A DNA stretch of 64,000 nt from Tolypeutes matacus (Eukaryota; Chordata; Mammalia; Cingulata; Chlamyphoridae). The notes below the pieces were generated by a model. The model saw only the letters and a program-made list of their open reading frames with translations. It searched no databases and was not told where the DNA came from. Positions 6,860 to 55,885 of the stretch are shown here, piece by piece. The stretch covers positions 12,870,107-12,934,106 of the forward strand of contig JAKSZT010054396.1 of NCBI GenBank assembly GCA_026826555.1, in the 5' to 3' direction. Both the position numbers and the translations under genes were made by a program. Numbering within the stretch: the stretch's first letter is position 1; each line of letters opens with the position of its first letter.

Positions 6860-7554
6860 ATGGCCCTATCAAGTGAAAGACATAAGCCTCCAGATAACAT
6901 AAAGGAGTTGAGACAGCTAATTATAGACGCTCAAACAAATCTCCTTAGTAAATTCAATGAGATGGTTAAAGAGATTAAGGATATTAAGATGACACTGGAT
7001 GAGCACAAAGAAGTATTTGAAAGCATACATAGAAAAACAGCAGATCTTTTGGGAATGAAAGGCACAATAAATGAAATTAGAAATACACTGGAATAAAAAA
7101 AAAAAAAAAAAGAAATACACTGGAGGCATGTAACAGCAGATTTGAGGAGGCAGAAGAAAGGATCGGTAAGCTGGAAGATATGGCCTCCAAGAGCAAACAC
7201 ACAAAAGAACAGATAAAGAAAAGAATGGAAAAAATTGAACAATGTCTCAGGAAACTAAATGATGGCAACAGACATGCAAACATATGTGTCCTGGGTGTCC
7301 CAGAAGGAGAAGAGAAGGGGAAAGGGGCAGAAGGAATATTTGAAGAAATAATGGTAGAAAATTTCCCAACCTTATTGAAAGACATAGATACCCATGTCCA
7401 AGAAGCACAATATACTCTCATCCAAATAAATCCAAATAGACCTACTCCAAGACACATACTAATCAGAATGTCAAATGCCAAAGACAAAAAGAGGATTCTG
7501 AGAGCAGCAAGAGAAAAGCGAAGCATCACATACAAGGGACACCCAATAAGATGA
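6860..7554 (+). pseudogene. L1 ORF1p pseudogene (copy A)
   Basis: L1 ORF1p is an RNA-binding trimeric chaperone of the L1 particle. The first segment (6860-7094) has heptad-like coiled coil residues (LLSKFNEMVKEIKDIK) and stops just after a poly(A) insertion. The second (7125-7554) continues with GKLEDMASK, then the RRM-type stretch ICVLGVPEGEEKGKGAE and the C-terminal domain with RPTPRHILIRMSNAKDK. The insertion adds 32 nt and so both shifts the frame and introduces a stop. The remaining frame is well kept for an old L1. Confidence 0.8.
7079..7124 (+). mobile_element. Poly(A)-only insertion with 14-bp target duplication
   Basis: The 14-mer agaaatacactgga occurs at 7079-7092 and again at 7111-7124, with only 'at' plus a run of A between them. 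This is what target-primed reverse transcription leaves when it copies little more than a poly(A) tail. Confidence 0.75.
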
Positions 7555-7924: not shown

Positions 7925-8620
7925 ATATTAGTGGATTAAACTCCCCAATCAAAAGACACAGACTAGCAGAATGGATAAGAAAATATAAGCCACCTACAGG
8001 CTGTCTACAAGAGACTCACCTTACACCCAAGCATAGCAGGTTGAAAATGAAAGGCTGAAAAAAACATGCATGCAGTAACCAAAAAAAAAAAAAAAAGCTG
8101 GAGTAGCTATACTTATATCAGGTGAAATAAACTTTAAAAGCAAAACTGTTATTAGGGACAAGGAAGGACATTACATATTAATAAAAGGGGCAATTCACCA
8201 GGAAGAAATAACTATAAAAAATGCATATACATTTAACCAGGAAGCCCCAAATTAGATGAGGCAAACATTGGAAAAACTGAAAGGAAATATAGATGTTTGT
8301 ACAAAAACAGTTGGAAACTTCAATACAACAGTCACAGCATTGGATAGAACATTTGGGCAGAGGATCAATAAAGAAACAGAGAACTTGAATAATACGATAA
8401 ATGAACCAAACCTAATAGACATATATAGAACATTGCACCCCAAAACAGCAGGATATACAAGTGTTCATGGATCTTTCTCCAGGATAGACCATATGTTGGG
8501 TCACAAAGCAGATCTCAATAAATTTAACAAGATTGAAATTATTACAGAGCACCTTCTTTGGTCATATGGAATAAAGCTGGAAATCAACAACAGGCATAAA
8601 ATATACTGAGATTAAACAAA
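7925..8620 (+). pseudogene. L1 ORF2 endonuclease remnant (copy A)
   Basis: The 8256-8609 frame ends in the L1 endonuclease C-terminal signature SRIDHMLGHK, followed by the EIITEHLLWSYG-type segment. Upstream, 7960-8100 in another frame encodes the 'CLQETHLTPKH' region. Frameshifts and stops between these prevent function. Confidence 0.75.
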
Positions 8621-8789
8621 CTCTTAAGTAATCACTGGGTCAAAGAAGAAATTGCGAGAGAAATCAATACATATCTCGAGACAAATGAAAATGAGAAGAC
8701 AACATATCAGAACCTATGGGATGCAGCAAAGGCAGTGTTGAGAGGGAAATATATAGCACTCAATGCTTACATTAAAAAAGAAGAAAGAG

Positions 8790-9449
8790 TCTTTCTGGCA
8801 CTACCATGAAAATGACCATTCTTAGCAACCAGACTGTCGACATTCCAGGAAATGTCGACATCACACTGAAAGGACAGTTATTGTGAAGGTCCCCAGAGGA
8901 ACCCTGCAGAGGGACTTCAATCACATCAATGTAGAACTACTTGGGAAGAAAAAGAAGAGGTTTTGGGTTGACAAATGGTGGGGAAATAGAAAGGAACTGG
9001 CTACAGTTCGTACTATCTGTAGTTTCGTACAGAATGTGATCCAGGGTGTTACACTTGGCTTCTGTTACAAGATGAGGTCTGTGTATGCTCAGTTCCCCAT
9101 CAACATCCTTATTCAGGAGAATGGGTCTCTGGTTGAAATCCAAAATTTCTTGGGTGAAAAATACATTCACAGGGTTTGGATGAGGGAAGGTGTTGCTTGT
9201 TCATTATTTCAAGCCCAGAAAGATGAGTTAATTGTTGAAGGAAACTATATTGAACTTTGATTTAACAAGCCACAACAGTTAAAAACAAGGATATAAGAAA
9301 AATTTTGGATGATATCTATGTCCCTGAAAAAGGAACAATTCAGCAGGCTGATGAATAAAATCTAAGAATTGTGAAGCAGTGAAAACAGTAAGATGCCAGA
9401 CCTATTTATGATATTTTAAACATGCAATAAAATTCATGTTTAAAAAAAA
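8790..9449 (+). pseudogene. RPL9: RPL9 (60S ribosomal protein L9) processed pseudogene
   Basis: The sequence is an intronless mRNA copy. A start codon at 8806 precedes [14 protein letters not shown] coding. 8883-9260 then reads [38 protein letters not shown] and [19 protein letters not shown], all hallmarks of RPL9. A premature stop follows 'GNYIEL' at about 9258. The original C-terminus (QQADE, stop) is recognisable at about 9340-9358 after further damage. An AATAAA signal (about 9426) and poly(A) (9442-9449) follow. It sits in L1 copy A ORF2, with an A-rich 'aaaaaagaagaaagag' target repeated at 8775-8789 and, after a later insertion, at 10155-10170. Confidence 0.9.
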
Positions 9450-9453
9450 GAAG

Positions 9454-10154
9454 ATGCGAATATTCTCACTGTCCTGATTCTGTGATAATCAGGGTGGGCT
9501 AAACATTCGCTATATTAGAAACCATGCATGTGTCCCCAGACCTCGTTTTCCTCCCTAGGTCTGGTTTTTAGAATGCTGGTGATAAACTAAGCCTGATTTA
9601 TTATATGTCCATCCTGTATGGGAAAAGACTGTAACTCTAGGTATCTCTGGTCAACCTTAAGAGATATAGCAGGGGGCTATATCTGGTTGGCGTCCATCTC
9701 CCATATGGAGGGACCTGGGTTCGATCCCCGGGACCTCCTGGTAAAAATTTAAAAAATATATAGAAGGTGCGTGGGCCGCCAGGCCCTGTGCGCGGGCGCA
9801 CCACCAGTTCCCGCGAGCCACACAGCAAGATGATGACATAATAGGAGAGTGACACAAGGGAGAGGCAAGATGAGACGCACCGAAAAACCAGCAACTAAGG
9901 TTGCGCGGGCAGGATGCCTCTCTCCTACATCAGAGATTCCAAGGATTGAATCCCAGCGAAGACAGGAGGAGAAGGATGAGAAGAGAGGGCAGAAAATGGA
10001 CACAGAGTTGCCCAGCGAATGGACACAGAAACAGCAAAAATGGGGGGGGAGGGGGAAGGGGTGTAAAAATGGATAAAAGTAAATAAATAAATAAATCCTT
10101 AAAAAAGAAAATAAATAAATAAATAATTAAAGAAGTTGCCTTAAAAAAAAAAAA
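9454..10154 (+). mobile_element. Composite retroposon: unique 5' unit plus DAS dimer (copy 1, no L1 tail)
   Basis: 9454-9670 is a ~215-bp non-SINE unit ('atgcgaatattctc' ... 'agagatatagcaggggg'). It matches 54953-55172 with the same 5' end and the same junction into a DAS head. The DAS part (9671-10150) has a head with 'gggttcgatcccc', a short GC-rich repeat stretch ('gggccgccaggccc'), a second SINE-like half, and an AAATAAATAAAT tail. Unlike the 55 kb copy it ends after the A-rich SINE tail. It lies in the poly(A)/target-repeat zone of the RPL9 pseudogene, so it came later than that pseudogene. Confidence 0.75.
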
Positions 10155-10169
10155 AAAAAAGAAGAAAGA

Positions 10170-11740
10170 GTTAAAATCAATGACCTAACTACACAGTTGG
10201 AGAAACTAGAAAAAGAACAGCAAACTATTCCCAAAACAAGCAGAAGGAATGAAATAAAAAAGATCAGAGCAGAAGTAAATGAAACAAACTAGACAATGTA
10301 GATGAAATGGAAAAAATCCTAGGAACATACAAACAACCTACACTAACCATAGAAGAAATAGAAGACCTCAACAAACCAATCATAAATAAAGAGACTGAAC
10401 AGTCATCAAACAACTCCCCAAAATGAAAAGTCTAAGACCAGATCGCTTCACAGGTGAATTCTACCAAGCATTCAAAGAAGATTTAATCCCAATCTTACTC
10501 AAACTCTTCCAAAAAATTGAACAAGAAGGAATGCTACCAAACTCATTCTATGAAGCCAATATCATCCTAATACCCAAACCAGATAGATACTACAAAAAAA
10601 AGCAAATTACAGATCCATTTCCCTAATGAATACAGATGCAAGAATCCTCAACAAAATACTTGCTAATCAAATCCAACAACACATTAAAAGAATTATTCAC
10701 CATGATCAAGTGGGTTTTAGACCAGGCATGCAAGGATGATTCAACGCAAGAAAATCAATCAGTGAAATACACAACATTAATAAATCAAAGAAGAAAAATC
10801 ACATGATCATCTTGATTGATGCAGAAAAGGCATTTGACAAAATACAGCATCCTTTCTTGATAAAAATATTCTGATAGAAATTTAAGGAAACTTTCTCAAC
10901 ATAATAAAGGGCATATGTGAAAAACCCACAGCTAACATTGTACTCAATGGTGAAAGACTGAAAGCTTTCCTATTGAGATCAGGAATAAGATAAGGATGCC
11001 CACTGTCACCAGTTGTTATTCAATATTGTGCTAGAAGTTCTAGCTAGAGCAGTTGACCAATGGAACCGAATCGAGAACTCATAAGTAGACCCTTGCATCT
11101 TCAGTCAAGTGGTTTTTTGACAAGGCTGTCTAGCTACCCAGCTGGGGCCCAACAGTCTATTCAACAAATGGTGCTGGGAGGACTGGAAATCCATATTCAA
11201 AAGAAAGAAAGAGGACTCCTATCTCACACCTTTTACAAAAATTAACTCAAAAAGGATCAAAGACCTAAATATAAAAGCTAGAACCATAAAATTCTTAGAA
11301 GAAAAGGTAGGGAAACATCTTCAAGATCTGTTGGTAGGTGGTGGATTCTTAAACCTTACACCAAAAGCATGAGCAACAAAAGAAAAAAAAATGGATAAAT
11401 AGGACCTCCTCAAATTTAAACACTTCTGTGATTCAAAGGACTTTCTCAAGAAGGTGAAAAGACAGCCCACTTAATGGGACAGAATATTTAGAAACCACAT
11501 ATCTGATAAGGGTTTTGATGTCCATGCTATATAAAGAGACCATACAACTCAACAATAATAGAGCAAGCAATCCAATTTAAAAATGGGCAAAAGACTTAAA
11601 TAGCCATTTCTCCCAACAGGAAATGCAAATGGCAAAAAAGCACATTAAAAAAAGTGTTCAATATCACTAGCTATTAGGGAAATGCAGATCAAAACGACAA
11701 TGAGATATCATCTCTCACCTCATAGAATGACCATTATTAA
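10170..11740 (+). pseudogene. L1 ORF2 reverse transcriptase / C-terminal remnant (copy A)
   Basis: The frame at 10423-10626 has [20 protein letters not shown] and [10 protein letters not shown]. '[18 protein letters not shown]' follows at about 10810-10868 and 'LEVLARAV' near 11030. Sequence then jumps at 11055 to the C-terminal region ('gaccaatggaaccgaa'). The FADD motif is gone with the missing block. Several stops are present. Confidence 0.8.
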
Positions 11741-12875
11741 TACACAGAAAACAGTAAGTGCTGGAGAGGATGTGGAGAAATAGGAACATTCCTTTGCTGT
11801 TGGTGGGAGTGTAAAATGGTGCAGCCTCTGTGGAAGACAGTTTGGCAGTTCCTCAGGTAGCTAAATGTACTGCCATATGATCCAGCAATCCCCCTACTTG
11901 AAATATATCCAGAAGAACTGAAAACAGTGACACAAGCAGACATTTATACACTGATGTTCATAGTGGCGTTATCACAATTGCCCAAAGATGGAAATAACCC
12001 AAGTGTCCATCAACTGAGGAATGGATAAACAAAATGTGGTATATACATAAGATGGAATACTATGCTGCTGTAAGAAGAAATGAAATTGGGATACATATCA
12101 TAACATGGATGAACCTTGAAGACATTATGCTGAATGAAAAAATCTAGACACAAATGGACAAATAGTGTATGGTCTCACTAACTATGAACTAAATACAAAG
12201 AATAAACACACAGAGCTAAAACCTAGAATATAGGTTACTAGGAGATAGGATGAGGGCTAAGAAGCAGTACTGATGCTTAATGTATATAGAATTTTTAATT
12301 AGCTTGACCGTAAAAGTGTGGAAATGGATAGAGTTGATGGTAACACATTATAAAGAGTATTAACTAACACAGCTGGTTTATAAATGGGATTGTGACTGAA
12401 AGGGGTAGTCTAGGGATGTAAATGTCAATTGAAAGAAAGCTAGAGAATAATCTAGGGACTGAAAAACATAATGAACCCAGAGGTGGATGAGGATTGTAGT
12501 TAATAGTACAAATACAAGAATATTCTTCTATGAACTAGAACAAAGGTATATCACTATTACAAGGTGGTAAGAATAAGGAGAAGCATGGAGAATAATTGTA
12601 TTTTCATTTATTATGGACTATAGTTAACAGCAATATTGTAATATTCTTGCATCAATGTCAAAGAAGGGGGGATATGGAAAAAAATATAACCAAATGTAGG
12701 TGATAGACCATAGTTAGTGCTAATAGTCTGATGATGTTCTCTCATAATCTGTAATAAATGTTCCACAACAATGTAAAGTGTTGGTGGATGGGTGTTGTAT
12801 GGGAATTCTGCATATTATGCATGATTGTTTTGTAAATTCACAACTTCTCTAATAAAATATGTATAACAGTGAATA

Positions 12876-13810: not shown

Positions 13811-14465
13811 TGTAGCAGTTTGATATTATTTATGAATTTCAAAAAGAGATATAGATTATGTTTGTAAACTGGTTTGTTCCTCTGGGCATGATACCCTTTA
13901 ATTGTATTATATTCAGAGGTTTCACTTTTACTTTATTAAATCAAGATTAGGGCTTTGATTTGACCACGTCATTAGGGCATGCAGGGTTTGAGTCCCCGCC
14001 CCCTTGCTGGGCTATATAAACAGACACTCAATCAAGAACACAGAAGTAGATACATAGAAGAACACAGAGGAAGAGAGACAGCTCCATAGACACGGCAGAG
14101 GCCCTGGGAAGAGAAATGAGCAATTTGCCTGACAGTTTACAGATGACCTTGTAAAGAGAACAGAACAGCTGAGCCCAGAAAGAAACGAGCCCTGGGAGGA
14201 GAGATGAATCTTATGCCAGCCTACAGCTGAGACTGGAAGAAGCTGGGCCAATGGAGCCTTAAGAGGTAAGAGGAAGGCTGAACCCTCACAGATATTGGCA
14301 ACTGTCTCACTTCAACACATGCAACAGAATTTGGTAAGGAAGTAACCTTGCATTGGACTCTTTAGGGCCTTGTAACTGTAAGCTTTTACTCCAAATAAAT
14401 ACCCTTTATAAAAGCCAACAGATTTCTGGTACTGTGCATCAGCACCCCTTTGGCTGACTAATACA
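13811..14465 (+). mobile_element. Solo LTR (ERVL/MaLR-type) with 5-bp target duplication
   Basis: The element runs from TGTAGCAG to CTAATACA and is flanked by GCTAG on both sides (13806-13810, 14466-14470). A 'gctatataaa' TATA box lies at about 14010 and an 'aataaa' signal at about 14395. TG...CA ends with a 5-bp duplication fit the ERVL/MaLR class. It is antisense to IQCH and lies 106 bp upstream, in gene sense, of the exon-like block at 13495-13704. No internal viral genes are present. Confidence 0.8.
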
Positions 14466-16689: not shown

Positions 16690-16796
16690 AAAAATGTTGA
16701 ACGCTTCACGAATTTGCATGTCATCCTTGCATAGGGGCCATGCTAATCTTCTCTGTATTGTTCTAATTTTAGTATATGTGCTGTTGAAACAAGCAC
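16690..16796 (-). pseudogene. U6 snRNA pseudogene
   Basis: The reverse complement matches U6 along its length: gtgcttgtttcaacagcac, then 'acatatactaaaatt', 'gagaagattagcatgg', 'caaggatgaca' and 'aaattcgtgaagcgtt', ending in a U/T-rich tail. Several substitutions (for example in the 5' stem loop and the ACAGAG neighbourhood) mark it as a retrocopy rather than an active gene. No U6-type upstream promoter was recognised. Confidence 0.92.
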
Positions 16797-19122: not shown

Positions 19123-20481
19123 GCATACAGTGTGTAAGCATAAAGAATTTGAAAGATTAGAAAGAAACATAACAAATTATGGGGATGAAAGGCACAACAA
19201 TGGAGATTAAAAATACGCTAGAGTCATACAACAACAGATTTGAACAGGCAGAAGAAAGAATCCAGTGAACTAGAAGACAGGACAATCAAAATCATACAGT
19301 CTGAAGAACAGATAGAGAAAAGAATAGGGAAAAAATGAGCAGTGTCTCAGGGATTTGAGTGACAGCATGCAGTGCACAAACATACACATCATGGGTGTCC
19401 CAGAATGAGAACATTAGGGAAAAGGGGTAGAAAAAATATTTGAGGAAATAATGGCAGAAAATTTCCAAACTCTTATGAAAGACAAATATAATAGATCTAC
19501 TCTAAGACACATACTAATCAGAATATCAAATGTCTAAGATAAAAAGAGAACTCTGAAATCAGCACAAGAAAAGTAATTTGTCACATACAAGGGATTCTCA
19601 TCAGAAACCATGGCTGTGAGAAAGCAGTGGCATGACATATTTAAGGTATCAAAAGAGAGAAACTGCCAGTCAAAAATACTTTATCCAGCAAAACTGACCC
19701 TCCAAAATGAGGACAGCTGAAAATATTCACAAACAGAAACTGAGAGAGTCTGTCAACAAGAGATTTGCTCTACAAGAATTACTAAAGGGAGTTCTGCAGG
19801 TTGAAAGAAAAAGACAGGAGAGAGTGATTTAGAGTAGTGTGAAGAATTGAAAATCTTCAGTAAAGGTAATTTTAAAAGGGTAAGTGCAAAACCCAATAAT
19901 ACTGTATCTTCAATATACAACTCTACCCTTTAATTCCTATAAGAATCAGAAAAACAATTGAACAAGAAAAAGGCATATTTCTTCATAATGGACACACAAA
20001 ATATAAAGAGGTAATGTGGGATAACATACTACATAAAGAAAGGAAACAGGGATATAAGGGTATAGAATGTGTATGCTATTAAACCTAAGTTGGTATCTTT
20101 TAAAATTAGTAGGTTATATATGTAGGCTGTGTAATACAAACCTTATGGTAACCACAAAAAAGAAATTTAAAAATATCTAGAAACAGAAATGAGAAAGGGA
20201 TCAGTCAGAACATCACAAAAATCAACTATACAGAAAAGGAGCTTTCAATAAAGGAAAAGAAAGGCAAAAAAATATGATATATAAAAAACAAAGGACAAAA
20301 TGGCTGATGTGAGTACTGCCTATGTAGTAATAACAGTCTAAGGAGAAGTTACAAGGGAAATCAGTAAATATCTTGAGTTGAATGAGAATGAGAATACAAC
20401 ATATCAAAACTTATGGGATGCAGCAAAGGCAGTGCTGAGAGTGAAATTTATAGCCCTAAATGCTTACATTGAAAAAGATGA

Positions 20482-20924
20482 GGGGGCAGATGTGGCTCAA
20501 GCGATTGGGCTCCCATCTACCATACAGGAGGTCCAGGGTTTGATTCCAGAGGCCCCATGGTGAAGGCAAGCTGGCCCACATGGCAAGCTGGCCCAAGCAG
20601 AGAACTGGCCCACATGTAGTGCTGGCCCACGCAGGAGTGCTGGCCCAAGTGGAAAGCTGGTACAGCAAGATGATGCAACAAAAAGAGACACAGAGGAGAG
20701 ACAATAAAAGACACAGCAGACCAAGGAGCTGAGGTGGCACAAGAGATTGAGCGCCTCTCTCCCACTCCAGATGGTCCCAGGATCTGTTCCCAGTGTTACC
20801 TAAAGAGAAGACAAGCAGACACAGAAGAACACACAGCAAACGGACACAGAGAGCAGACAGTGAGCACAAAAACAAAGGGGGGGTGGAGATAAATAAATAA
20901 ATAAATCTTAAAAAAAAAAAAAAA
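20482..20924 (+). mobile_element. DAS-type dimeric SINE with expanded internal repeat
   Basis: The head has 'gcagatgtggctcaagcg' and 'agggtttgattcc'. An internal block of about five 'gctggcccac/a' units follows at 20568-20665, then the second half and an AAATAAATAAATCTT tail. The direct repeat aaaaagatga flanks it (20472-20481 and about 20924-20933). Confidence 0.88.
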
Positions 20925-20931
20925 AAGATGA

Positions 20932-21020
20932 AGGGAGTGGATGTAGCTTAGTGGTTGAGTGCTTCCCATGTACAATGTTCTGGGTTCAAAATCCAGTACC
21001 TCCATAGAAAAAAAAAAAAA
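20932..21020 (+). mobile_element. DAS-related SINE head, short
   Basis: 'gtggatgtagcttagtggttgag' and 'tgggttcaaaatcc' give a degraded tRNA-like head with a poly(A) tail. It is the second of three insertions at the same 'aaaagatgaa' site. Confidence 0.75.
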
Positions 21021-32800: not shown

Positions 32801-32914
32801 AAGCTAAGAGTTATGAAAATATTGATGATCATGATTATGACAATGAATATGATGACCATTGTATATCTGTTTTCCTATTTACATAAAATAAGGAAAACAC
32901 AAAATAAGAAATAA

Positions 32915-33529
32915 ATAGCATGGGTGTGCCACCAGGCCCCACGTGTGGGTGAGCCGCCAGGCCCCGCGAGCAGGTGAGCCGCCAGACCCCACAAGCCACA
33001 CAGCAAGATGGTGACATAACAGGAGAGTGACACAAGGGAGAGCCAAGATGAGATGCACTGAAAAACCAGGAACTAAGGTGGCGCAGGCAGTAGGATGCCT
33101 CTCTTCCACATTGGAGGTTCCGAGGATCAAAACCCAGTGAAGACAGGAGGAGGAGGATGAGAAGAGAGGGCAGGAAATGGACACAGAGAGTTGCCCAGTG
33201 AATGGACACAGAAACAGCAAAAACGGGGGGCGGGGGGGTGTAAAAATGGATAGAAGTAAATAAATAAATAAATCCTTTTAAAAAATGTATAGGGGAAGAA
33301 GATACGGGCTATAGTTAGTAGTTATACTTTGACGATGCTCTTTCATAATTTGTTAACAGATGCTTCACAACAATGCAGGGTGTTTATGGAGGGAGATGTG
33401 TGGGAGCCCTGCATGATGTTATACATGTTTGTTTTGTAAGTTCACGATGTTTACTGAACACTTATAGTTTATGTATGTTCATGTAAGAATGATATACTTC
33501 AATAAATTGTTTAAAATTTTTAAAAAAGA
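32915..33529 (+). mobile_element. Composite retroposon: DAS SINE plus L1-type 3' tail (copy 2, 5'-truncated)
   Basis: It begins inside the GC-rich repeat part of a DAS element (three 'gtgagccgccaggcccc'-like units), continues through the second SINE half and A-rich tail (to about 33284), then an L1 3'-UTR-like tail: 'gctatagttagtagtta', 'gatgctctttcataatttg', 'cacaacaatgcagggtg', 'gatatacttcaataaa'. The same tail follows the SINE at 55612-55850. The direct repeat aagaaataa flanks it (32906-32914, 33530-33538). Confidence 0.8.
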
Positions 33530-33945
33530 AAGAAATAATAAGAAACTGCTCTGTACTATTATTTAATATGCAGATTGTCACTGGAGCCCTCACATGGTCA
33601 TGCCACCCACAGTTCTGGAGACATCTTCAGAGTGGAAGCTCCATACCAAAAGGGGTGAACAGTGGGGCCAGAACTGGTACCTTTGCTTTCAAAACATTAG
33701 AACATACTACAGTTTACTTGTGCATGAGAAAGTGGTTTATGGATTATATTATTTAGTTTTAACTAAATTAAGCCTGAAAAAATCGACAGTGTCTTAAAGA
33801 GGCTCCTTCAAAAATACTCAGTGCATTTTGAAATAATGATGACAAGTATAAGTGAACAACAGGAAAAAGGCAGGGCTTACACTTTTACCACTAGCATGAG
33901 CACTTCATCATTTACATTAGAAAGTAAATATGAAGATCTAGCCCC
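33530..33945. other. IQCH intron, nothing recognised
   Basis: Unique-looking sequence. The two overlapping + frames at 33568-33797 have no splice context. Confidence 0.4.
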
Positions 33946-54705: not shown

Positions 54706-54952
54706 TCCATTCATTTTTGAACCTAACAAATTACTGCAGACTAAATTAATGAGTAGATCATTATCCAATCATCCAGTATTTATTGGCTCAATCCTGTGCT
54801 GGATATAATAGGATATCCAAAGATTCAGTATTTATTGTTTTATATTTATGTGTTAGGCTATATTTTAATCCTTAAAAGACTCCAATGAGGGATTTAATAT
54901 TATTATCTTCATTTTATACATGAGAGAACCTGAGATTTAAAGGGGTTAAGTG

Positions 54953-55870
54953 ATGCGAATATTCTCGCTGATCTGATTTTGTGATAAGCAGGGTAGGCCA
55001 AACATTCACTATATTAGAAACCATGCATGAGTCCCCAGACCTCATTTTTCTCCCTAGGTCTGGTTTTTAGAATGCTGGTGATAAACTATGCCTGATTTAT
55101 TATATGACCATCCTGTATGGGAAAAGACTGTAACTTTGGGTATCTTTGGTCAACCTTAAGAGATATAGCAGGGGGACAGATGTGGCTCGGGTCGATGGGC
55201 ATCCATCTCCCATATGGAGGGACCTAGGTTTGATCCCTGGGACCTAGCGGTAAAAATAAAAAAAAGAAAAATATAGAAGGCGTGTGGGCCACCAGGCCCC
55301 ATCAGCGGGTGCGCCATCAGGCCCTGCGAGCCACGCGGGAAGATGATGCTGTAACAGGAGAGTGACACAAGGGAGAGCCAAGATGAGACACACTGGAAAA
55401 CCAAGAACTAAGGTGGCGTAGGTAGCAGGATGCCTCTCTCCCACATCAGAGATTCCGAGGATCGAATCCCAGTGAAGACAGGAGGAGGAGGATGAGAAGA
55501 GAGGGCAGGAAATGGACACAGAGAGTTGCCCAGTGAATGGACACAGAAACAGCAAAAAAGGGGGGGAGGGATAAAAATGGAAAAAAGTGAATAAATAAAT
55601 CAATTCTTAAAAAAATGTATAGGGGAGGAAGATACAGACTATAGTTGGTAGTAATACTTTGACGATGCTCTTTCATGATTTGTTAACAAATGTTTCACAA
55701 CAATGCAGGGTGTTTGTGTGTGTGGGGTGATATGTGGGAGCCCTGTATGATGTTATACATGTTTGTTTTGTAAATTCACGATGTTTACTCAACACTTATA
55801 GTTTATGTATGTTCATGTATGAATGATATACTTCAATAAATTATTTAAAATAATAATAATAATAATAAAA
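54953..55870 (+). mobile_element. Composite retroposon, full copy: 5' unit + DAS dimer + L1-type tail
   Basis: The 15-bp perfect repeat taaaggggttaagtg (54938-54952, 55871-55885) bounds a single 918-bp insertion. It holds a 5' unit of unknown origin (54953-55172), a DAS dimer (about 55173-55611, with 'gggacctaggtttgatccctgg'), and an L1-3'-UTR-like tail (55612-55850: 'actatagttggtagtaa', 'cacaacaatgcagggtg', 'gatatacttcaataaat') with an A-rich end. The 5' unit recurs at 9454 and the tail at 33285. A shared outer target duplication shows the three parts moved as one RNA. Confidence 0.88.
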
Positions 55871-55885
55871 TAAAGGGGTTAAGTG

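Follow-up and report, generated by a model that had tools for sequence, protein, structure and literature searches.

A SNORA72-headed, SVA-like composite retroposon in the armadillo Tolypeutes matacus

The stretch of DNA analysed here (the window) comprises 64,000 nucleotides of contig JAKSZT010054396.1 from the armadillo Tolypeutes matacus and harbors a retroposon composed of a small nucleolar RNA (snoRNA), a dimeric short interspersed element (SINE) and the 3' end of an L1 element. Positions 54953-55870 are one insertion, flanked by a 15-bp target-site duplication, TAAAGGGGTTAAGTG, at 54938-54952 and 55871-55885. The limits of the element and the duplication had been proposed by a first-pass annotation made from the letters of the window, and the coordinates given there are exact. 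Within the window, TAAAGGGGTTAAGTG is present in the two flanking copies only, and 3000 random flank tests yielded one match of 16 bp and one of 10 bp, the remainder being at most 9 bp long.

The 5' end of the element is a complete snoRNA of the H/ACA class. The first 134 nucleotides (nt) of this copy, as well as those of a second headed copy starting at 9454, match SNORA72 in Rfam with 120.0 and 136.9 bits, respectively (gathering score 43), and both matches span model positions 1 to 132. The head at 54953 contains an H box, ATATTA, and a terminal GATAAAC; here, AUA plus 3 nt at the end of the head would in our reading represent the ACA-type box. The first base of the element, as set by the 15-bp duplication, is the first base of SNORA72. 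The first-pass annotation had described this 5' unit as unknown and as recurring at 9454 with the same start. The recurrence was confirmed, with the same first base and 92.6% identity over 216 nt, whereas the unit now has an identity, namely SNORA72 followed by a segment of 84 nt, termed X here. X gave no Rfam match up to an E value of 5 and 0 matches in one scan of viral contigs. A strong fold of SNORA72 head and X was considered and rejected for the two in-window heads (z of -0.48 and -1.04; 63 and 36 of 200 shuffles were equally good), as was a duplication stemming from an earlier SINE insertion after X, for which the best match, CCTTAA, was equalled by 765 of 2000 shuffles.

Downstream of X lies a SINE body, a dimer of tRNA-like units presumed to be of the DAS type. 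The first base of its first unit (55171) corresponds to the 5' end of a headless copy at 20482. Since this headless dimer starts at the equivalent base, head and X are most simply seen as a module added to a pre-existing SINE. ARAGORN called a tRNA-Gly on related SINE copies. The Rfam tRNA model matched the first unit only just above its gathering score of 29 at two other loci of the genome (L015, 29.2 bits; L053, 30.0 bits), and no match was obtained there in most loci scanned. Inside the SINE a tandem array of a 25-bp unit is present, which has 83% GC in the consensus and counts 2 units in the copies at 54953 and 9454 and 3 units in a truncated copy at 33 kb; Tandem Repeats Finder gave no report of the 2-unit array at 54953.

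The 3' part of the element aligns with two L1-type ends inside the window. One of these two, at 12678-12841, follows coding sequence whose match (E 1.1e-10) is to the C-terminus of human L1 ORF2p. In the copies at 54953 and at 33 kb, SINE and L1 are joined at the same base, within the A run of the SINE. This recurrence of the SINE/tail junction had been placed at 33285 by the first-pass annotation; the junction does recur, at 33286, in a copy that is 5'-truncated in the SINE. The first-pass annotation had proposed that the L1-like tail would give the L1 machinery a strong 3' recognition site. The tail is not a requirement for movement, since the copy at 9454 moved without it, and L1 is described as working via the poly(A) tract (PMC4476161).

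To place this insertion in its genomic context, the assembly from which the window was taken (3,625,713,217 bases in 5002 contigs) was searched. The 918-nt element as query gave 10,635 candidates. The best 40 of these were scored and all 40 are nearly full length, one being the window copy itself; the family consensus has a length of 904 nt. Of the 39 other copies, 38 start at query nt 1-5, and the single exception (L039) contains SNORA72 from end to end despite its deviating start. All 34 loci given to Rfam (L009-L042, out of 39) display model positions 1-132 of SNORA72, and all 40 copies, when aligned, share the whole of X. Of these 40, 24 are flanked by exact duplications of 9 bp or more, in comparison to 4 of 193 mispaired controls; in 12 of the 24 the duplication lies exactly at nt 1 of the element, and in 21 it is no more than 1 nt away from where the snoRNA begins. 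The first-pass annotation had suggested searching the genome with the 5' unit and, separately, with the SINE/tail junction. Both searches were productive: with up to 3 mismatches allowed, the SNORA72/X junction (30 nt, 10 of the snoRNA and 20 of X) is present 13,813 times (6913 + 6900), and with up to 2 allowed, the SINE/L1-tail junction (25 nt) is present 7,162 times (3582 + 3580), with 0 matches for the reversed control in either case. These whole-genome candidate and junction counts are far beyond chance.

An unselected sample, consisting of twenty 10-kb stretches taken at 5-Mb steps from one contig, C4322 (200 kb, of which 6641 are N), contained three SNORA72 matches in all, and all three lie in full composites. 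Extrapolating from 3 in 193 kb gives about 56,000 copies (12,000-164,000), a loose estimate whose low end is near the junction count. The parts move as one unit in a fixed order, with a start at or within a nucleotide of snoRNA nt 1, an A-rich end and target duplications. The proposal of the first-pass annotation that parts of different origin were retroposed together, in an SVA-like manner, is supported by the genome-wide copies, their duplications and the unselected sample. A chance juxtaposition of three repeats is ruled out by the single duplication together with thousands of like junctions genome-wide.

The parallel to SVA also includes a variable number of tandem repeats (VNTR), which the first-pass annotation had overlooked. 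The 25-bp array varies in unit number among copies of the family, from 2 to about 8 units in the copies read. The unselected composites L062, L065 and L066 contain 7.8, 4.8 and 4.5 copies of the unit, and a separate counter of the core found 5, 5 and 5 cores, with gaps in the spacing of L062. Among the best 40 copies the array was measurable in 31, with 2 units in 26 and 1 unit in 5, and by a second measure all 26 of 26 copies were equal in length; these sizes are biased, since the sample was chosen by likeness to a 2-unit query. Genome-wide, exact anchors were applied to the 2-unit and 5-unit length classes and gave 1080 and 369 copies, respectively, with 0 for the controls. As a side observation, C3304:2410-2673 and C3324:2410-2673 match at identical coordinates, which perhaps reflects duplicated contigs in the assembly.

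Outside CpG sites, the best 40 copies diverge from the consensus by 3.4% in the snoRNA, 3.0% in X, 4.2% in the second SINE part and 4.1% in the L1 tail. X, for which no function is expected, does not exceed the snoRNA in divergence, so that decay of the insertions seems to be neutral. With a substitution rate of 2.2e-9 per site and year, the age of the family is roughly 14-19 million years, a rough value on the low side since the copies are well kept. At position 19 a non-CpG transversion (T19A) divides the 40 copies into 19 with T and 18 with A, which suggests that the complete composite had two or more source lineages. The idea that source copies recombined freely was rejected, as most two-allele sites look by eye like decayed CpGs and the best linkage among 361 pairs had a p of 0.0037. 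Likewise rejected was a lower divergence of head and X than of the SINE in the two in-window headed copies (13/208 versus 33/359 non-CpG differences, Fisher p 0.26). Among the full-length L1 families of Dasypus, the most abundant is described with a Kimura divergence near 5.2% (PMC13251070), and it is possible that this L1 family was the partner of the composite.

The explanation favored here, with a probability of about 0.7, is a non-autonomous family of composites mobilised by L1 and consisting of SNORA72, X, a tRNA-SINE unit, the GC-rich 25-bp VNTR, a second SINE unit and an L1 3' end, which would spread via an RNA of RNA polymerase II (Pol II) ended by a small nucleolar ribonucleoprotein (snoRNP). 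At its origin, RNA of a DAS-type SINE and SNORA72 would have come together in a single event: the SINE may have inserted into a host intron, 84 nt beyond SNORA72, in which case X would be intron, or a template switch may have linked the two. A switch from the L1 3' untranslated region (UTR) onto the A tail of the SINE would have supplied the L1 end. Composite copies within transcribed DNA would then be read by Pol II, 5' trimming would halt at the H/ACA snoRNP and leave the 5' end at snoRNA nt 1, and polyadenylation would use the AATAAA present in the L1 tail, or that of the SINE end where the tail is lacking. Finally, the resulting 5' snoRNA-ended and 3'-polyadenylated (SPA)-like RNA would be inserted by L1 proteins through target-primed reverse transcription.

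Several features of the copies are in line with this. The head contains runs of at least 4 T in 40/40 copies and of at least 5 T in 39/40, and a run of four or more T is a stop for RNA polymerase III (Pol III). The Pol III boxes come after the head, with the B box at consensus nt 275. Because of both, Pol II rather than Pol III is the likely polymerase, and the T runs speak against a Pol III origin of the full-length RNA. AATAAA is present near the 3' end in 36 of the 40 copies. The first base of the element is A in 27, C in 6, T in 5 and G in 2 copies, that of L039 being uncertain owing to an indel, and this possibly mirrors a heterogeneity of 1 nt at the RNA 5' end. The 5' end coincides with that of the processed snoRNA and its first base varies, as trimming by an exonuclease up to a bound snoRNP would give. 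The A-rich target starts (AAAA starts 7 of the 24 duplications), the length and form of the duplications and the L1 tail point to L1 as the mover. Furthermore, the SPA pathway is described to accept an H/ACA snoRNA, SNORA5C having been used in place of SNORD107 (PMC11028025).

This explanation is compatible with the composite being already named in Repbase or Dfam, for example as a DAS-III subfamily, in which case only the identities of the parts would be new. The chance of this is close to even: a family this abundant is hard to overlook and probably has an entry of some kind in repeat libraries, and Churakov reportedly described DAS-III in 2005 as the fusion of a tRNA-Ala unit with about 180 nt whose origin was not identified. 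However, this description is matched at least equally well by the headless dimers at 18 and 20 kb, and among the papers listed by literature searches, mostly outside subscription journals, none described an armadillo element that is SNORA72-headed or SVA-like.

A different origin of the RNA would be an internal Pol II promoter of the element itself, located in the head and X or at the SINE, as is also supposed for SVA. The snoRNA would then be a passenger and nt 1 the transcription start. The uniform 5' ends would fit this as well, and so would a snoRNA that is no less diverged than X. Nevertheless, the start would have to coincide by chance with the processing end of the snoRNA, and while cap-copying is expected to leave an extra G at the 5' end, the distribution of first bases given above contains no such G. 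We therefore consider an internal promoter unlikely, although it is the strongest competitor for the way in which the RNA is made.

Improbable is an ordinary SINE mode, in which Pol III driven by the tRNA-like boxes sustains the family and the head is carried along by far-upstream starts. A B-box-like motif is retained in 30/40 copies, and within SINE positions 219-600 a run of four T occurs in just 5/40 copies, both of which would suit such a mode. On such boxes, however, Pol III starts close to the tRNA-like unit, which lies approximately 220 nt 3' of where the copies are seen to begin; the A and B boxes that a SINE with an internal Pol III promoter has near its transcription start are not located there, the B box being at consensus nt 275. 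Moreover, the T runs of the head are present in every one of the 40 copies, and the copy at 9454 has 10 nt fewer in the A-box region than that at 54953. Independent template-switch chimeras of SNORA72, SINE and L1 RNAs at each locus, analogous to the U6/L1 and U3/L1 chimeras that are described as arising repeatedly (PMC13174262, PMC4476161), might at most account for the first event and are rejected as the source of the family, since one snoRNA/X junction with 20 nt of X lies at 13,813 places, X as a whole is identical in kind across 40 aligned copies, one fixed SINE/L1 junction lies at 7,162 places and T19A is common to many copies.

Some observations weigh against the L1-mobilised family with a snoRNP-ended RNA, or limit it. 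The step involving Pol II and the snoRNP is read from signs in the DNA, the uniform 5' end would also fit an internal Pol II promoter, and the snoRNA sites, diverging no less than X, give no sign of constraint after insertion. No duplication of at least 9 bp was found in 16 of the 40 copies nor in L062, and the best 40 are biased toward well-kept copies with 2 units. The tail junctions amount to about half of the head junctions, counted at different thresholds; a tail may be missing from many copies, as it is at 9454, or the junction may be masked by indels within the A run. On contig C3, a head junction lies 532-666 nt upstream on the same strand in 6 of 20 exact tail junctions. This pairing used the first 100 listed exact head junctions, which reach to 54.5 Mb (3 further exact tail junctions beyond this reach were dropped), and 35-40% paired would be expected if every tailed copy were headed at 3.0-3.4% divergence. 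Nor does possession of a tail group the three members of the window: with A, B and C denoting the members, the numbers of sites are 18 for AC|B, 23 for BC|A and 22 for AB|C. A form with 5' unit and tail lacking the SINE, which the first-pass annotation had named as the case that would reduce the composite to a known element carrying a SINE insertion, was unseen in the 40 scored and 3 unselected copies, although likeness to the whole composite had guided the choice of the 40, the C3 pairing spanned 300-1500 nt and no dedicated search for this form was made.

Two further members and a headless relative are present in the window (Table 1), and of the three members only that at 54953 is a complete composite. 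The copy at 9454 is placed in the poly(A) and duplication of a processed RPL9 pseudogene, which itself breaks L1 ORF2 (region 8256-10171) after 8790 and is flanked by a 17-bp duplication, AAAAAAGAAGAAAGAGT, at 8774-8790 and 10155-10171; the L1 resumes beyond, with a reverse transcriptase match at 10399-10623. Here, the upstream duplication of the pseudogene represents the site as it is without the element. A single duplication around the 9454 copy and the following L1 was rejected, the best match being just 3 bp. The duplication assigned to the 9454 copy, AAAAAAAAGAAG, is A-rich and its left limit is uncertain, with a 7-bp alternative ending at 10135. Between SINE end and poly(A), 36 nt (10107-10142) are found with AATAAA 19 nt ahead of the poly(A), possibly a 3' transduction or readthrough to a poly(A) site. 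For the third member, a tentative 9-bp duplication (32903-32911 and 33537-33545) competes with an equal 9-bp match that begins at 32915. The 10-mer AAAAAGATGA flanking the headless dimer is also present at 21016, 21131 and 39331. Apart from these elements, the window contains a full-length match to the U6 small nuclear RNA on the minus strand (16690-16796, 105.1 bits), which is probably a retrocopy, and a U6 match of 82.2 bits was found within the unselected sample at L059:4156-4257.

Table 1. Parts of the insertion at 54953, other members in the window and composites of the unselected sample. Positions refer to the window unless preceded by a locus.
Feature	Position	Strand	Remarks
5' copy of target-site duplication	54938-54952	.	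15 bp, TAAAGGGGTTAAGTG
Head, complete H/ACA snoRNA SNORA72	54953-55086	+	Rfam RF00139, 120.0 bits, model 1-132/132
X	55087-55170	+	84 nt between snoRNA 3' end and SINE 5' end; common to family
First tRNA-like SINE unit	55171-55255	+	DAS-type (presumed); B-box-like GGTTTGATCCC
GC-rich tandem array	55279-55335	+	25-bp units, 2 units here
Second SINE unit	55336-55615	+	GGATCGAATCC, B-box-like in our reading; A-rich end
L1 3' end (3' UTR)	55616-55850	+	AATAAA at 55835
A-rich 3' terminus of element	55851-55870	+	
3' copy of target-site duplication	55871-55885	.	
Second headed copy, without L1 tail	9454-10152	+	SNORA72 9454-9587, X 9588-9671, SINE 9672 to ~10106, ~36 nt more, poly(A)
5' copy of duplication of 9454 copy	9442-9453	.	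12 bp, AAAAAAAAGAAG; 3' copy 10153-10164
Third member, 5'-truncated inside SINE	32912-33536	+	3 GC-rich units; SINE/L1 junction at 33286
Older headless SINE dimer	20482-20921	+	begins where the head of the composite ends; 10-bp duplication AAAAAGATGA at 20472 and 20922
Unselected composite	L062:592-1623		no duplication
Unselected composite	L065:3157-4148		14-bp duplication
Unselected composite	L066:7082-8039		7-bp duplication, 17 bp with one mismatch

Beyond the family itself, a wider claim can be put forward tentatively, at somewhat less than even odds. The composite may represent a class of retrotransposon in which a snoRNP, in place of a cap or of initiation by Pol III, sets the 5' end of the RNA. 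The H/ACA head would then be a working module that blocks 5' decay and makes most insertions full length, and the SVA layout of a structured 5' part, a GC-rich VNTR, a SINE and a poly(A) end would have been reached independently in a xenarthran. SVA and its gibbon kin have been regarded as nearly alone among amplified composites in having a VNTR. A second independent composite would allow one to ask which features recur, such as a structured or ribonucleoprotein-bound 5' end, a GC-rich VNTR, a SINE and a LINE-type (long interspersed element) poly(A) end, and may thus matter for trans-mobilisation by L1. The family would also be a natural test of a snoRNP as the 5' end of a retrotransposon RNA. 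In practical terms, SNORA72-like loci in thousands would inflate the snoRNA annotation of this genome.

Among the known systems, SVA of hominoids, with LAVA in gibbons, is the closest in layout. SVA consists of CCCTCT hexamers, an Alu-like part, a VNTR and SINE-R, the latter derived from HERV-K. Like SVA, the armadillo family is a non-autonomous composite whose parts move together, flanked by target duplications and ending in poly(A); it carries a GC-rich VNTR between its modules and is present in thousands of copies, the human SVA copies being given as about 6,000 (PMC13174262). In contrast to the hexamers, Alu-like part and SINE-R of SVA, it has a snoRNA head, a tRNA SINE and an L1 3' end, its VNTR unit is 25 bp long and its origin is independent. 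Its 5' end is SNORA72 and not a CCCTCT hexamer array, which rules out membership in SVA, so the composite is SVA-like only.

SnoRNA-headed retroposons are already known from the platypus. The snoRTE and PlatSINE1 elements likewise form retroposon families with a snoRNA at the 5' end that were amplified as one unit (PMC7245038, PMC4233971, PMC3511168). The snoRTE snoRNA is described as H/ACA (PMC4233971), and for one platypus snoRNA family over 40,000 copies are given (PMC3511168). The armadillo composite has in common with them that a complete H/ACA snoRNA heads a family that was amplified. The platypus elements rely on an RTE-type LINE as partner, whereas here the partner is L1, a tRNA-SINE dimer and a VNTR are added and the snoRNA is SNORA72; with a 3' end from L1 and not from an RTE-type LINE, the composite is not snoRTE itself.

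With the DAS-SINEs of armadillos, to which its SINE body is presumed to belong, the composite shares the tRNA-like units and the dimer, and headless relatives lie in the same window; the composite differs by the additional head, X and L1 tail. The U6/L1 and U3/L1 chimeras resemble it in having a structured nuclear RNA 5' of an L1 3' piece within one duplication, and they illustrate how such joints arise (PMC13174262, PMC4476161). The U6/L1 chimeras are described as usually spreading no further (PMC13174262), whereas the SNORA72 composite was amplified. Finally, the SPA long non-coding RNAs (lncRNAs) correspond to the RNA form proposed here, with a snoRNP-blocked 5' end and a poly(A) 3' end, an arrangement described to work with an H/ACA snoRNA as well (PMC11028025). 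SPA lncRNAs are not mobile, and the composite family would link this RNA form to retroposition by L1.
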